A stretch of 36,467 nt of DNA. Origin: Candidatus Doudnabacteria bacterium (GTDB lineage: Bacteria > Patescibacteriota > Doudnabacteria > UBA920 > O2-02-FULL-48-8). This document shows, one piece after another, positions 12,025 to 17,799 of the stretch. The stretch's first letter is position 1. Every line of letters starts with the position of its first letter. Location: the NCBI GenBank assembly GCA_016186915.1, contig JACPKU010000006.1, forward strand, positions 313,619-350,085, written 5' to 3'. A model generated the notes under the pieces. The model saw only the letters and a list, made by a program, of their open reading frames with translations. It had not been told where the DNA came from and did not search any database. A program made the translations under genes and the position numbers.

Positions 12025-12033
12025 AAAAAATAC

Positions 12034-12208
12034 ACCTTCTTTCATCCCGACTATACGGTCGGCCCTGGAATTACACCAGATCATGCCACTGACTAGGTGG
12101 CTCGTGGGCTAAACCCTCTCTCGGCCTTCGGCCACTCTCTCCCAAGGAGAGAGAGATAAAAAGAAAGGGTCATTACCACCGATTGCCGAATCACACGGCA
12201 CCCTGAAA
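12034..12208 (-). ncRNA. FMN riboswitch (RFN element)
   Basis: On the minus strand the conserved RFN blocks appear in order: TCAGGGTGCCGTGTGATTCG, then AATCGGTGGTAATGACC, TTAGCCCACGAGCC, GATCTGGTGTAATTCCAGG, GCCGACCGTATAGTC and GGGATGAAAGAAGG. These correspond to the RFN consensus (CAGGGTGAAATTCC, CGGCGGTAAT, AGCCCGCGAGCC, GATCCGGTGAGATTCCGG, GCCGACGGT, GTCCGGATGGAAGAAGG). A palindromic hairpin (CTCTCTCC..., about 12117-12150) is inserted in the variable arm before AGCCC. The SD (GAAGG) of the transporter gene lies in the last conserved strand, so FMN binding likely blocks translation. Confidence 0.9.
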
Positions 12209-12212
12209 ATGT

Positions 12213-12653
12213 TTAATTACTTGGATTATAACTGGAGAAAAACTGTCTGGCAAACAGCTCATCCTGTTTCATCTGCTCGATCAATTCGTCCGCAGAATCA
12301 AATTTTTCGTTCTCTCGAATCTTTTTGATGAGTTCCACCCCTAACTCTTTCCCGTAAATGTCATATGTAAAATCCAGGATATACACTTCTACTTTTCTCT
12401 CCTGCTCATCAAAAGTCTTCGCGCTACCGATAAAGATTAAGGCAGGCAAATATTTTTGTTCCGGCATGATCGCTTTCCTCGGCCACAACTTGCGGACAAA
12501 CAATGGCGGCAGACCATTTTCTATGTGCGTGACTAAGCCTACATAAACACCTTCTTCGGCGTGGGTTTCCGCATCCAAATTCGCGGTCGGGAATCCTAAC
12601 TGCTTGCCTCGTCCCAAATGTTTTTTCACTTTACCGGAGATTATTGTTGCCAT
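12213..12653 (-). CDS. Riboflavin kinase (flavokinase domain alone)
   Basis: Phosphorylates riboflavin to FMN. With the start MATIISGKVKKHLGRGKQLG the product is 146 residues and equals the C-terminal kinase domain of RibF: GRGKQLGFPTANLD (14-27), AEEGVYVGLV, and the C-terminal EVYILDFTYDIYGKEL. The adenylyltransferase half is not fused; a separate nucleotidyltransferase lies just upstream (12721-13191). A longer start would add residues encoded by a palindromic repeat (MLPERSEAESKAI) and is less likely. Confidence 0.9.
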   Translation of the reverse strand: MATIISGKVKKHLGRGKQLGFPTANLDAETHAEEGVYVGLVTHIENGLPPLFVRKLWPRKAIMPEQKYLPALIFIGSAKTFDEQERKVEVYILDFTYDIYGKELGVELIKKIRENEKFDSADELIEQMKQDELFARQFFSSYNPSN

Positions 12654-14320: not shown

Positions 14321-14499
14321 AAAAATCCGGCTCTTTTGGCCGGTTCATCGCTTTTCCTATTTAAACTTGCATGTTTAATGCTTCATTCTCTTAAGCGCTG
14401 AACCGGCTGCACTTGGGTTGGGACAAAATTAACCTTATCCAAGGCCTTGGTGGCAATGGAATTAGTGCGGGTAATTTGGTTCAGCTGTCGGTAATTCAT
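14321..14499 (-). promoter_or_regulatory. Attenuator D (four-segment leader RNA)
   Basis: Minus-strand segments: 1 = GCTGAACC (14485-14478), 2 = GCCGGTTCAGC (14407-14397), 3 = TGAACCGGC (14347-14339), 4 = GCCGGATTTTTG (14331-14320). 1:2 pairs over 8 bp, 2:3 over 9 bp, 3:4 over 5 GC pairs followed by the T-tract. Segments 1 and 2 lie inside the 38-codon leader ORF. Pairing 2:3 excludes the terminator 3:4. Confidence 0.7.
14383..14499 (-). CDS. Leader peptide of unit D (38 aa)
   Basis: ATG at 14499 to TGA at 14383; starts MNYRQLNQITRTNSIATKAL and ends VNFVPTQVQPVQRLRE. It contains attenuator segments 1 and 2. Unlike the leaders of A-C there is no clear run of one amino acid; Val and Gln are frequent just before segment 2. 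No SD. Confidence 0.45.
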   Translation of the reverse strand: MNYRQLNQITRTNSIATKALDKVNFVPTQVQPVQRLRE

Positions 14500-14877: not shown

Positions 14878-15144
14878 CTACACTCCGTGGCCGTAGCCAG
14901 CCTCAACGAGATCGGACCCGCGATGCTCGAACTGAACCGCTGGCTGCGCCGGCGCCGGCTTCTTGCTGCGGCAGAGCTCGGCTTCGGCAACAGCCAGTTT
15001 CTGGACCACTTGGTGAAGCGCGTCACCGCAGTCCACGATTTGCCGAACGCTGCCGCCATTGCGGACATGACCCACAAGAGTCGTGGCAAGCCCCGCGATC
15101 TCGCGCTTCGTCTGTTCCACCTCTTCCCGAAGCCTCGTTTCCAT
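14878..15144 (-). CDS. Small hypothetical protein C1 (88 aa), coiled-coil-like
   Basis: ATG at 15144 preceded by GAGGAGGAA; begins METRLREEVEQTKREIAGLA, continues with an amphipathic helix (DALHQVVQKLAVAEAELCRS) and ends VEAGYGHGV. Likely a helical bundle or coiled coil. It is the first gene after the Leu-type attenuator and the GTCAT hairpin. Function unknown. Confidence 0.7.
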   Translation of the reverse strand: METRLREEVEQTKREIAGLATTLVGHVRNGGSVRQIVDCGDALHQVVQKLAVAEAELCRSKKPAPAQPAVQFEHRGSDLVEAGYGHGV

Positions 15145-15341: not shown

Positions 15342-15480
15342 AAAAATACCGGCCTTTTGCGAGCCGGTTGCTGTTACGTGATCCGTGTTATGTGATACGC
15401 GATCTATAACCAAAACCGACTCTTTGAGGCAAGAGCAACAACAAGCCCAAAATAATTAAAAGTCGGATTTGATTAGCCAT
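15342..15480 (-). promoter_or_regulatory. Attenuator C (Leu-type leader RNA)
   Basis: Minus-strand segments: 1 = CCGACT (15466-15461), 2 = GAGTCGGTT (15422-15414), 3 = AACCGGCTC (15369-15361), 4 = GGCCGGT then ATTTTTG (15353-15341). 1:2 pairs 6 bp, 2:3 pairs 9 bp, 3:4 pairs 6 bp plus G-U and T-tract. The Leu codon run lies between segments 1 and 2. The 2-3 loop holds repeated TCACGTA-like words shared with attenuator B. Confidence 0.8.
15388..15480 (-). CDS. Leucine-rich leader peptide (30 aa)
   Basis: MANQIRLLIILGLLLLLPQR followed by VGFGYRSRIT and TAA. Eight of residues 7-17 are Leu, using CTT, TTA, TTG and CTC. It resembles the Leu runs of enterobacterial leu leader peptides. The ATG (15480) is about 87 nt from the predicted transcription start, because a palindromic repeat lies between. 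No SD is seen. Confidence 0.6.
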   Translation of the reverse strand: MANQIRLLIILGLLLLLPQRVGFGYRSRIT

Positions 15481-15745: not shown

Positions 15746-15775
15746 GAAAAGGCCGAAGCGCTGTGCGCTTCGGCC
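15746..15775 (-). terminator. Terminator of small-gene unit B
   Basis: Minus strand GGCCGAAGCG / CGCTTCGGCC (10 bp) followed by TTTTCTTT. Confidence 0.92.
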
Positions 15776-15794: not shown

Positions 15795-15989
15795 TCAACT
15801 GCTCTGTCTTCCCGACAGCTGATCCATAGCGCCCATCAAGTCTTGCATCCGATCACTGTTGGATGCCTTCTGCGCAAACAGGTGAGCCGGAACCGGTCCG
15901 ACCGTGTGCTGATCGATCTCTCTTTGCAGCCGCACATTCTCGCGGCTCAACTGCACGAGTTCCTCACTCAGCTTATGGACTTCGTTCAT
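15795..15989 (-). CDS. Small hypothetical protein B1 (64 aa), coiled coil
   Basis: ATG at 15989 behind AAAGGGGG; the product MNEVHKLSEELVQLSRENVR then LQREIDQHTVG shows a Leu heptad pattern over the first 35 residues, followed by a polar tail ending LSGRQSS. It has a single Ile although the leader ahead is Ile-rich. No family recognised. Single gene of unit B. Confidence 0.7.
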   Translation of the reverse strand: MNEVHKLSEELVQLSRENVRLQREIDQHTVGPVPAHLFAQKASNSDRMQDLMGAMDQLSGRQSS

Positions 15990-16080: not shown

Positions 16081-16202
16081 AAAAAACCGGCCTTAAGCCG
16101 GCTTGTGCTACGTGATCTGTGTTACGTGATACGTGACAAAGGCCGACTTTACGGACGGATCATAATGCTAATAATAGAGATAATATTATGTGATCGGTTC
16201 AT
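16081..16202 (-). promoter_or_regulatory. Attenuator B (Ile-type leader RNA)
   Basis: Minus-strand segments: 1 = CCGAT (16197-16193), 2 = AGTCGGC (16148-16142), 3 = GCCGGCT (16102-16096), 4 = GGCCGGTTTTTT (16092-16081). 1:2 pairs 5 bp, 2:3 pairs 7 bp, 3:4 forms a stem with U-tract. The leader stop codon is immediately before segment 2. The 2-3 loop carries TCACGTATCACGTAACAC and ATCACGTA. Confidence 0.8.
16149..16202 (-). CDS. Isoleucine-rich leader peptide (17 aa)
   Basis: MNRSHNIISIISIMIRP and TAA; six Ile codons (ATT/ATC) in ten positions. The ATG (16202) is about 11 nt from the end of the -10 box, so the mRNA is nearly leaderless, matching the lack of an SD. Confidence 0.6.
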   Translation of the reverse strand: MNRSHNIISIISIMIRP

Positions 16203-16212
16203 ACTTGAAACC

Positions 16213-16241
16213 AGTTTATCACTGGATTTAGTTTAAGTCAA
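16213..16241 (-). promoter_or_regulatory. Promoter of unit B
   Basis: TTGACT (16236-16241), 17-nt spacer, TAAACT (16213-16218). Confidence 0.78.
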
Positions 16242-16305: not shown

Positions 16306-16536
16306 TTACGCCACGGCCGTGGTCTTCGTCCTTGTTTCCCACGGCTCCCAACACGACGGGGGAATTGTCTTGCTGTCAGATGGCCAAGTGGCGTTGCACT
16401 TCTTGCAGCGCATCAGTTTGCCGCCCTGCTCGCGGATTACGGCCCGGCGCGCGTCAATCGATCCATGCCCTCGCCACATGCCGAAGGTCACTTCTTGGCT
16501 CAAGTCACCAAGCGCTTCACTTGCATCTCCGTTCAC
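16306..16536 (-). CDS. Small hypothetical protein A1 (76 aa) with CxxC
   Basis: GTG start at 16536 behind AAGGAGGTG; TAA at 16306. It begins MNGDASEALGDLSQEVTFGM, with a central MRCKKCNATWPSDSK and later PPSCWEPWETRTK, a possible rubredoxin-like zinc site with three Cys. Four Trp and no Tyr. It is the single gene of unit A under the aromatic-type leader. No family recognised. Confidence 0.7.
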   Translation of the reverse strand: MNGDASEALGDLSQEVTFGMWRGHGSIDARRAVIREQGGKLMRCKKCNATWPSDSKTIPPSCWEPWETRTKTTAVA

Positions 16537-16675: not shown

Positions 16676-16814
16676 AAAATTAAAATCCGACCATGCCGGT
16701 CGGTTAGTTTTGTTTGTCTGCCTTCGACAAGCTCAGGCATCAATACAGCAAAACTTACCGACCTCTGTATCGGAAAAAATAAAACCAAAACTGATTAGTA
16801 ATAGATGAATTCAC
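16676..16814 (-). promoter_or_regulatory. Attenuator A (aromatic-type leader RNA)
   Basis: Minus-strand segments: 1 = CCGAT (16773-16769), 2 = GGTCGGT (16763-16757), 3 = ACCGACC (16704-16698), 4 = GGTCGG then ATTTTAATTTT (16692-16676). 1:2 and 3:4 are short stems; 2:3 pairs 7 bp, with a further AGT/ACT beyond one mismatch. A palindromic repeat (ccttcgacaagctcaggc) sits in the 2-3 loop. Confidence 0.75.
16755..16814 (-). CDS. Aromatic-rich leader peptide (19 aa)
   Basis: GTG start: MNSSITNQFWFYFFRYRGR and TAA. Six aromatic codons in a row (TTT TGG TTT TAT TTT TTC), then Arg and another Tyr. The run sits just ahead of segment 1. Its GTG is inside the 3' arm of the MNPVRN element, so translation may depend on that element. 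Confidence 0.6.
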   Translation of the reverse strand: MNSSITNQFWFYFFRYRGR

Positions 16815-16959: not shown

Positions 16960-17799
16960 TTATTCCAACTTCGACATCCTGTCTAACAAACCATTCAGCT
17001 CTTCTTCTGAATAAAATTCAATCATTATCCGCCCGCTGCCGCCCTTTTTCGAAACCCGCACCTTGGTGCCCAGCTTCCCCCGCAGTTCCGCTTCTAAGGC
17101 CAAAACTTCGGGATCCTGCACAGTTCTCGGCGCCCTCACTGCTTTTTCTCTGTGAGTTAATTCCCGCACCCGATCTTCTGCCTGGCGAACAGTTAAATCC
17201 TGGGCAATTATCTCTTCCATTAAAGCCAGCTGTTTTTCCATCCCCGGCATGGCCAAGATGGCGCGAGCGTGCCCCTCGCTGATTTTTCCTTCTGCCACGG
17301 CACGTTGGATTTTCAGAGGTAAATGCAAAAGTCGCAAAAGATTGGTTACGGTGGTCCGCGCCTTGCCCACTTTCTTGGCCACCTCTTCTTGAGTTAAGTG
17401 ATACTTATCAATCAGTTGCTGATAAGCCAGAGCTTCTTCCACCGGATCGAGATTGTGGCGCTGAATGTTTTCTATCAAGGCCAGCTCCAGTTTCTTCTGC
17501 TCTTCCAGCGAGTCGCGGATTATCACCGGCACTTTGGTAAGGCCTGCCAGTTTCGAAGCACGCAATCTTCTCTCTCCGACTATCAGTTGATACCCGCCAG
17601 CACCATCTGGGATAACTATCAGTGGTTGCAAAATTCCATGCTCGCGGATCGAGTCAGCCAGTTCATTCAAGGTTTCTGGGTCGAACTCTTTGCGCGGCTG
17701 CCAGGGGTTGGGCTGGATCTGATCAATCGGAACTTCAGTAAAGTGAATAACTGGCAGATCAGGAGGTGGTGGTATTATTTTTGGTTCATCGTCATTCAT
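16960..17799 (-). CDS. parB: Chromosome-partitioning protein ParB
   Basis: DNA-binding CTPase that loads at parS and segregates the origin. The 279-residue protein has the CTP/arginine box GERRLRAS (75-82), ENIQRHNLDPVEEA (110-123), the helix-turn-helix LTQEEVAKKVGKARTTVTNL, GHARAI, and a C-terminal dimerisation tail with EEELNGLLDRMSKLE. No parA is adjacent: the upstream neighbour is a cassette of small genes. No match to the classical parS palindrome was seen in the window. Confidence 0.96.
   Translation of the reverse strand: MNDDEPKIIPPPPDLPVIHFTEVPIDQIQPNPWQPRKEFDPETLNELADSIREHGILQPLIVIPDGAGGYQLIVGERRLRASKLAGLTKVPVIIRDSLEEQKKLELALIENIQRHNLDPVEEALAYQQLIDKYHLTQEEVAKKVGKARTTVTNLLRLLHLPLKIQRAVAEGKISEGHARAILAMPGMEKQLALMEEIIAQDLTVRQAEDRVRELTHREKAVRAPRTVQDPEVLALEAELRGKLGTKVRVSKKGGSGRIMIEFYSEEELNGLLDRMSKLE

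Follow-up and report, generated by a model that had tools for sequence, protein, structure and literature searches.

What does a short, isoleucine-rich open reading frame (ORF) do between a promoter and an intrinsic terminator, 5' of the gene for a small protein, in a bacterium whose genome measures 728 kb? We analyzed this locus, here called unit B, in a 36,467-nt stretch of DNA from Candidatus Doudnabacteria bacterium (the window). With a probability that we put at about 0.8, based on sequence comparison and modelled RNA folds, unit B is a ribosome-mediated transcription attenuator that senses starvation for Ile or for branched-chain amino acids. As far as can be judged short of experiment, it passes the structural tests for a classical attenuator; termination in vivo and Ile as the signal are inferred.

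Read from the sequence, unit B is a complete small transcription unit on the minus strand (16241-15751; Table 1), consisting in order of the promoter, the leader, segment 2, a repeat spacer, an intrinsic terminator, a 64-aa gene introduced by GGGGG and ATG, and a terminator of its own. The promoter scores 9/12 and carries a TG before its -10 box, and 10 nt without a Shine-Dalgarno (SD) sequence separate that box from the ATG at 16202. Codons 7-15 of the leader read ATT ATC TCT ATT ATT AGC ATT ATG ATC, six Ile codons within nine to ten; at least six Ile codons in ten were found in only 6 of 4,994 short ATG-initiated ORFs from 21 stretches of the same genome. The stop codon, TAA at 16151-16149, shares two bases with segment 2 (AAGTCGGC), which is complementary to the 5' arm of the terminator. 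This terminator, AAGCCGGCTTAAGGCCGGTTT-TTTGTTT (16104-16084), comprises a 9-bp stem and a U-tract (together 16104-16081) and lies 5' of the first structural gene. The loop between segments 2 and 3 contains a ATCACGTAACAC-type repeat that occurs in many copies elsewhere, including inside coding sequence, and was rejected as a functional part. A preliminary description of this DNA had reported a nearly leaderless, Ile-rich leader with its stop codon at segment 2 and a downstream 64-residue protein with one Ile. These points were confirmed: the stop codon and segment 2 in fact overlap, the protein contains exactly one Ile, and the near-leaderless character combines the observed spacing with a predicted transcription start.

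Table 1 Features of unit B and its neighbors, with positions in the window.
Feature	Position	Strand	Details
parB	16960..17799	-	conserved neighbor upstream of the island
Unit C leader, (M)NSSITNQFWFYFFRYRGR, stop	16755..16814	-	GTG start; aromatic class; terminator 16703-16687
76-aa CxxC protein	16306..16536	-	under unit C control
Unit B promoter	16213..16241	-	TTGACT (-35, 16241-16236), 17-nt spacer, TAAACT (-10, 16218-16213); start predicted near 16206
Unit B leader peptide ORF, MNRSHNIISIISIMIRP, stop	16149..16202	-	no SD; 5' UTR about 4 nt if start is 16206
Unit B control codons	16158..16184	-	six Ile (I7, I8, I10, I11, I13, I15) in nine codons
Unit B segment 2, AAGTCGGC	16143..16150	-	overlaps stop codon; 5' strand of antiterminator
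ATCACGTAACAC-type repeat	16107..16136	-	forms the loop joining segments 2 and 3; frequent in the genome and present in unit A too
Unit B segment 3, AAGCCGGCT	16096..16104	-	partner of segment 2 (antiterminator) or segment 4 (terminator)
Unit B segment 4, GGCCGGTTT, and terminator U-tract	16081..16092	-	
Regulated gene, 64-aa predicted helical-hairpin protein	15795..15989	-	SD GGGGG at 15998-15994
Terminator closing unit B cassette	15751..15775	-	
Unit A leader, MANQIRLLIILGLLLLLPQRVGFGYRSRIT, stop	15388..15480	-	Leu/Ile-rich; terminator 15368-15348
Unit A genes	15144-14878, 14868-14692	-	first with GYGHGV tail
Unit D leader, MNYRQLNQITRTNSIATKALDKVNFVPTQVQPVQRLRE, stop	14383..14499	-	VGS class; terminator 14343-14327

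When the alternative structures of unit B were folded, the antiterminator region had an energy of -19.4 kcal/mol versus -12.1 kcal/mol for the terminator. For unit B and the rest of a set of 30 units, we then folded the RNA left free by a ribosome placed at each leader codon. In unit B, a modelled ribosome anywhere on I7-I13 left the antiterminator free; with the ribosome at I11 or I13 the antiterminator formed, and with the ribosome at the stop codon the terminator formed. The predicted switch falls between codons 14 and 15, and five of the six Ile codons therefore lie within antitermination range. Folding revealed no clear 1:2 pause/protector hairpin in unit B, a feature that is usual in attenuators but not essential. 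The untranslated transcript of unit B is therefore predicted to read through, which would make prompt, near-leaderless initiation a part of the mechanism; this fits the absence of an SD sequence from all 29 family leaders tested and their median distance of 10 nt from the -10 box. The predicted behavior of the lysC, dapA and cysS units of the family and of two aromatic units (G002a and G003a) does fit a 1:2 hairpin. A T-box gave no Rfam match, either at the gathering score or at E values up to 2, and the Rfam amino-acid leader families yielded only chance microRNA-type and serC-like scores below the cut-off.

In the mechanism that we propose, RNA polymerase would start about 4 nt 5' of the leader ATG, and a ribosome would initiate on the leader without an SD sequence. 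With Ile-tRNA plentiful, the ribosome would reach the stop codon and cover segment 2, segments 3 and 4 would pair, and transcription would terminate near 16084. With Ile-tRNA in short supply, the ribosome would halt on the Ile run and leave segment 2 free to pair with segment 3, and transcription would continue into the 64-aa gene. Unit B would belong to an array of cassettes that is conserved next to parB in the Doudnabacteria family, with different codons read by each leader (aromatic, Ile/Leu, Lys or Cys, plus one class to which no amino acid is assigned).

Comparison of the leader among relatives, the check attached to the preliminary description, spoke in its favor, with the Ile codons kept in orthologues from two other genera (G006, MNNRFVSIILGIIIRPAVGP...; G012, MNNRSILSILGIIIRA...). 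Their cores are IILGIIIRP and ILGIIIR, within the codons ...ATT ATT TTG GGA ATT ATT ATC CGT CCA and ATT TTG AGC ATT TTG GGC ATT ATT ATC CGA, and the Ile codons stand at matching distances from segment 2. The identity of Ile as the signal is less than proven because Ile also forms part of the hydrophobic stretch of the peptide. The signal of unit B may be Ile only, or it may be the branched-chain amino acids as a group; the leaders of unit A and of unit G003c are Leu/Ile mixtures.

Unit B belongs to a set of units spread through the family, which includes aromatic, Lys and Cys versions and lay beyond the view of the preliminary description. We found about 30 attenuator-like units in 11 Doudnabacteria-family genomes, nearly all of them in an island of small genes directly downstream of parB. 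They were collected first by inspecting the sequence that follows parB in related genomes and then by running a scanner on 20-kb stretches, with G005 and G007 added. In the genome that hosts unit B, four units succeed one another in the order C (aromatic), B (Ile), A (Leu/Ile) and D; several small SD-led ORFs lie after unit D, down to 13403. Away from parB, the scanner gave only a few spurious matches in about 1.2 Mb from the same family, and it is this near-emptiness that indicates a concentration of units in the island; a few units are located at metabolic genes elsewhere. A profile of the aromatic leaders, which contained the member sequences themselves, had one strong match in each of eight family genomes, always beside parB, and nothing nearly as strong appeared when genomes outside the family were searched. 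In other families of the same order, the region around parB contained no clear units, except for one candidate in L091. In 25 of 29 family leaders, versus 2.6% of random ATGs, the start codon is preceded at 4-24 nt by a promoter scoring 9/12 or better, a statistic that is partly circular because a promoter filter was used in gathering some of the units; among the leaders first found by terminator pattern or by eye alone, 10 of 12 have a promoter. The two alternative frames are open in only 1/29 and 7/29 leaders.

Two further features of the leaders were seen. The VGS-class leaders (14499-14383 in the window and eight relatives) keep the in-frame pattern (x)TT AA(x) (x)TT G(x)C and the residues VGS, and several contain short CCAA...TTGG inverted repeats recognized by eye; no single control amino acid or clear control codon was evident in this class. 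An inverted-repeat element of about 95-115 nt with arms CCGTTAGAAAT and ATTTCTAACGG (16911-16817 on the minus strand of the window; near 16400-16290 in L076) coincides with the point where the leader begins (start codon in ATGAA) in two different units, each from a different genome. It is flanked on each side by a short TGAA repeat, has many paired copies in the genome of the window, and is followed on its 3' side by a restart of the leader at GTG or ATG.

Across the family, the modelled ribosome at the stop codon led to the terminator in 30 of 30 units, and waiting at the control codons it led to the antiterminator. In those units that terminate by default when untranslated, the antitermination window fell on few residues. 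These are KK for dapA, SKK for aspartokinase, VCC for the cysS operon and, in three leaders of the aromatic class, YWF. The identities of the aspartokinase, dapA, dapB and cysS genes were confirmed. The Lys-Lys leaders, which precede an unknown 217-aa ORF, dapA-dapB, and aspartokinase (L084 9522-6249, L081 7060-8634), are likely lysine attenuators; the Cys-Cys leader, followed by a 76-aa Cys-containing ORF and then cysS (L083 9737-11628), is likely a Cys attenuator of cysteinyl-tRNA synthetase. Because the lysine and cysS units act as positive controls, codon reading is the best account of the whole family. Aromatic residues occupy 36 of 54 window positions versus 9 of 106 positions elsewhere in the same leaders, and I, L or V occupy 25 of 36 versus 27 of 107; the p-values of these enrichments bear on position within the leader and not on class identity, since the classes were assigned from the residues that were later counted.

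Leaders such as TnaC and Erm act through arrest by the nascent peptide. Applied here, the leader's own sequence would stall the ribosome, perhaps together with a drug or metabolite, instead of missing Ile-tRNA. Conservation of the peptides beyond single-codon runs (e.g., IILGIIIRP, NSFWFYF and LNIVL..DVGS), and the R-P-stop endings or R-X-R motifs of some leaders, would suit such an arrest, but the placement of KK leaders at genes for Lys biosynthesis and of a CC leader within the cysS operon points to codon reading, the control codons lie at the reach predicted from the RNA structures, and residues vary widely within a class. We consider arrest unlikely, and codon reading by an attenuator remains our interpretation.

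The three segments of each unit share complementarity (e.g., GGTCGG, CCGACC and GGTCGG). Over 30 units with 12 different segment-3 hexamers, segments 2 and 3 pair at 5.8 of 6 positions and segments 3 and 4 at 5.7 of 6, versus 3.6 and 3.4 with shuffled partners. This three-way covariation, with the open frame kept, the retention of Ile positions in three genera and the clustering of units beside parB are difficult to reconcile with a constitutive leader, a leaky terminator and an Ile-rich ORF arising by chance, in which nothing is regulated. That repeats have invaded the leaders and that the 64-aa gene is without relatives would be as expected for such a unit, which we nevertheless judge quite improbable. 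It is more doubtful still, and very improbable, that the ORF encodes a functional hydrophobic peptide resembling a type I toxin, with the terminator as a mere transcript end, as the Ile/Leu stretches of units A and B might suggest, since peptides of other kinds, polar (KK, CC) or aromatic, share this scaffold, the stop codon falls within segment 2 or close to it, an alternative antiterminator exists, and an SD-led gene follows each terminator.

Among known systems, ilvL of Escherichia coli is a leader-peptide attenuator of a branched-chain amino acid operon. The upstream ORF of Corynebacterium ilvBNC is likewise a branched-chain leader-peptide attenuator (PMC10272879, PMC11857589). Unit B shares with both a short ORF rich in Ile, Leu or Val codons, competing antiterminator and terminator structures, and a stop codon near the antiterminator strand; it differs in having no clear 1:2 hairpin and in controlling an orphan small protein, whereas ilvL and the ilvBNC leader control biosynthesis genes. 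Its host group also differs: a search for ilvC, which encodes a key enzyme of branched-chain amino acid biosynthesis, was negative in all 13 genomes of the family and order, with a control search positive in 14 of 14, so that a role of the Ile attenuators in making Ile is unlikely. Actinobacterial trp, leuS and trpS attenuators, which also precede aminoacyl-tRNA synthetase genes, have complementary G/C triplets in three segments that come close to the GGTCGG-CCGACC-GGTCGG arrangement found here (PMC1262725). They are single units at metabolic genes in another lineage, in contrast to the arrays before small proteins described here. In Bacillus subtilis, a starvation-sensing leader lies upstream of rtpA (anti-TRAP), which encodes a small zinc-binding protein, and the system also uses a T-box. 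The aromatic units here similarly precede CxxC proteins, but no trace of a T-box was seen.

The 64-aa protein controlled by unit B was modelled as a two-helix hairpin with a mean pLDDT of 91 in a single-sequence prediction. No homologues were identified among the 60 relatives searched, and no family beyond chance was identified in Pfam, NCBIfam or PHROGs. Attenuators usually, though not obligatorily, precede a gene in the pathway, or for the synthetase, of the sensed amino acid. The target of unit B is not such an Ile gene, and the lysC, dapA-dapB and cysS units provide this feature within the family. The preliminary description had also hinted that the target avoids Ile; the single Ile stood, but it says little about this target in particular, as low contents of Ile and other hydrophobic residues characterize every island protein. 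Specific depletion of the sensed amino acid from the target was rejected, the whole island being low in I, F, Y and N. Aromatic-class targets contain F, W and Y at levels no lower than other island targets, and the Ile content of Ile-class targets is slightly lower (2.5% versus 3.6% and 4.7%). The 64-aa protein is most likely a starvation-response protein.

Island genes in general are short, SD-led and hydrophobic-poor, and are rich in R, P, E, Q and C, the last by three- to six-fold. Their recurrent protein types are CxxC proteins after aromatic leaders, zinc-knuckle-like proteins with CxxCxxxGHNRRxC, arginine-rich probable hairpins, and proteins ending in GYGHGV; none received a family name from Pfam, NCBIfam or PHROGs. 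Small CCHC zinc-knuckle-like proteins of the CxxCxxxGHNRRxC type follow VGS-class leaders (L080, L081 and L076) and have weak Pfam zinc-knuckle or zinc-finger matches. GYGHGV-stop has a single occurrence per genome in five members of the family, each time within the island, and was seen in 1 of 103 genomes outside the family. The ending is common to otherwise different island proteins (14878-14895 in the window, at the end of an 88-aa gene; L075, L077, L078 and L082), with GYPCGTGWGV and CGYDWGGD as related endings, and to judge from these sequences it may serve as a tail for processing, modification or recognition. Elsewhere in the window, an FMN riboswitch (12030-12214) lies upstream of an EamA-type transporter gene (12084-11089), which is likely a flavin-related transporter.

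The switches of the island most likely serve to cope with amino-acid shortage. We give even odds to the broader proposal that the island next to parB is devoted to the starvation response of auxotrophs, in which tandem attenuators, each for a different amino acid, release fast-evolving families of small proteins when that amino acid is no longer supplied by the host or environment. The proteins released would be CxxC and zinc-knuckle proteins, arginine-rich helical hairpins and GYGHGV-ending proteins, and attenuation, instead of feeding back on biosynthesis, would report on supply in an auxotrophic cell that is perhaps an episymbiont. The mechanism itself is already known; what looks new is the lineage, the placement of units in tandem next to parB, their near-leaderless character and their orphan targets. 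The literature searched contained no description of leader-peptide attenuation from Patescibacteria, Parcubacteria or the candidate phyla radiation, and within that literature these units would be the first leader-peptide attenuators described in the candidate phyla radiation. They would also represent a different use of attenuation, in which apparent auxotrophs sense amino-acid supply and the targets are small proteins. Through the readthrough expected on starvation for Ile, aromatic amino acids, Lys or Cys, the attenuators would provide a direct handle on small genes that have neither homologues nor annotation.
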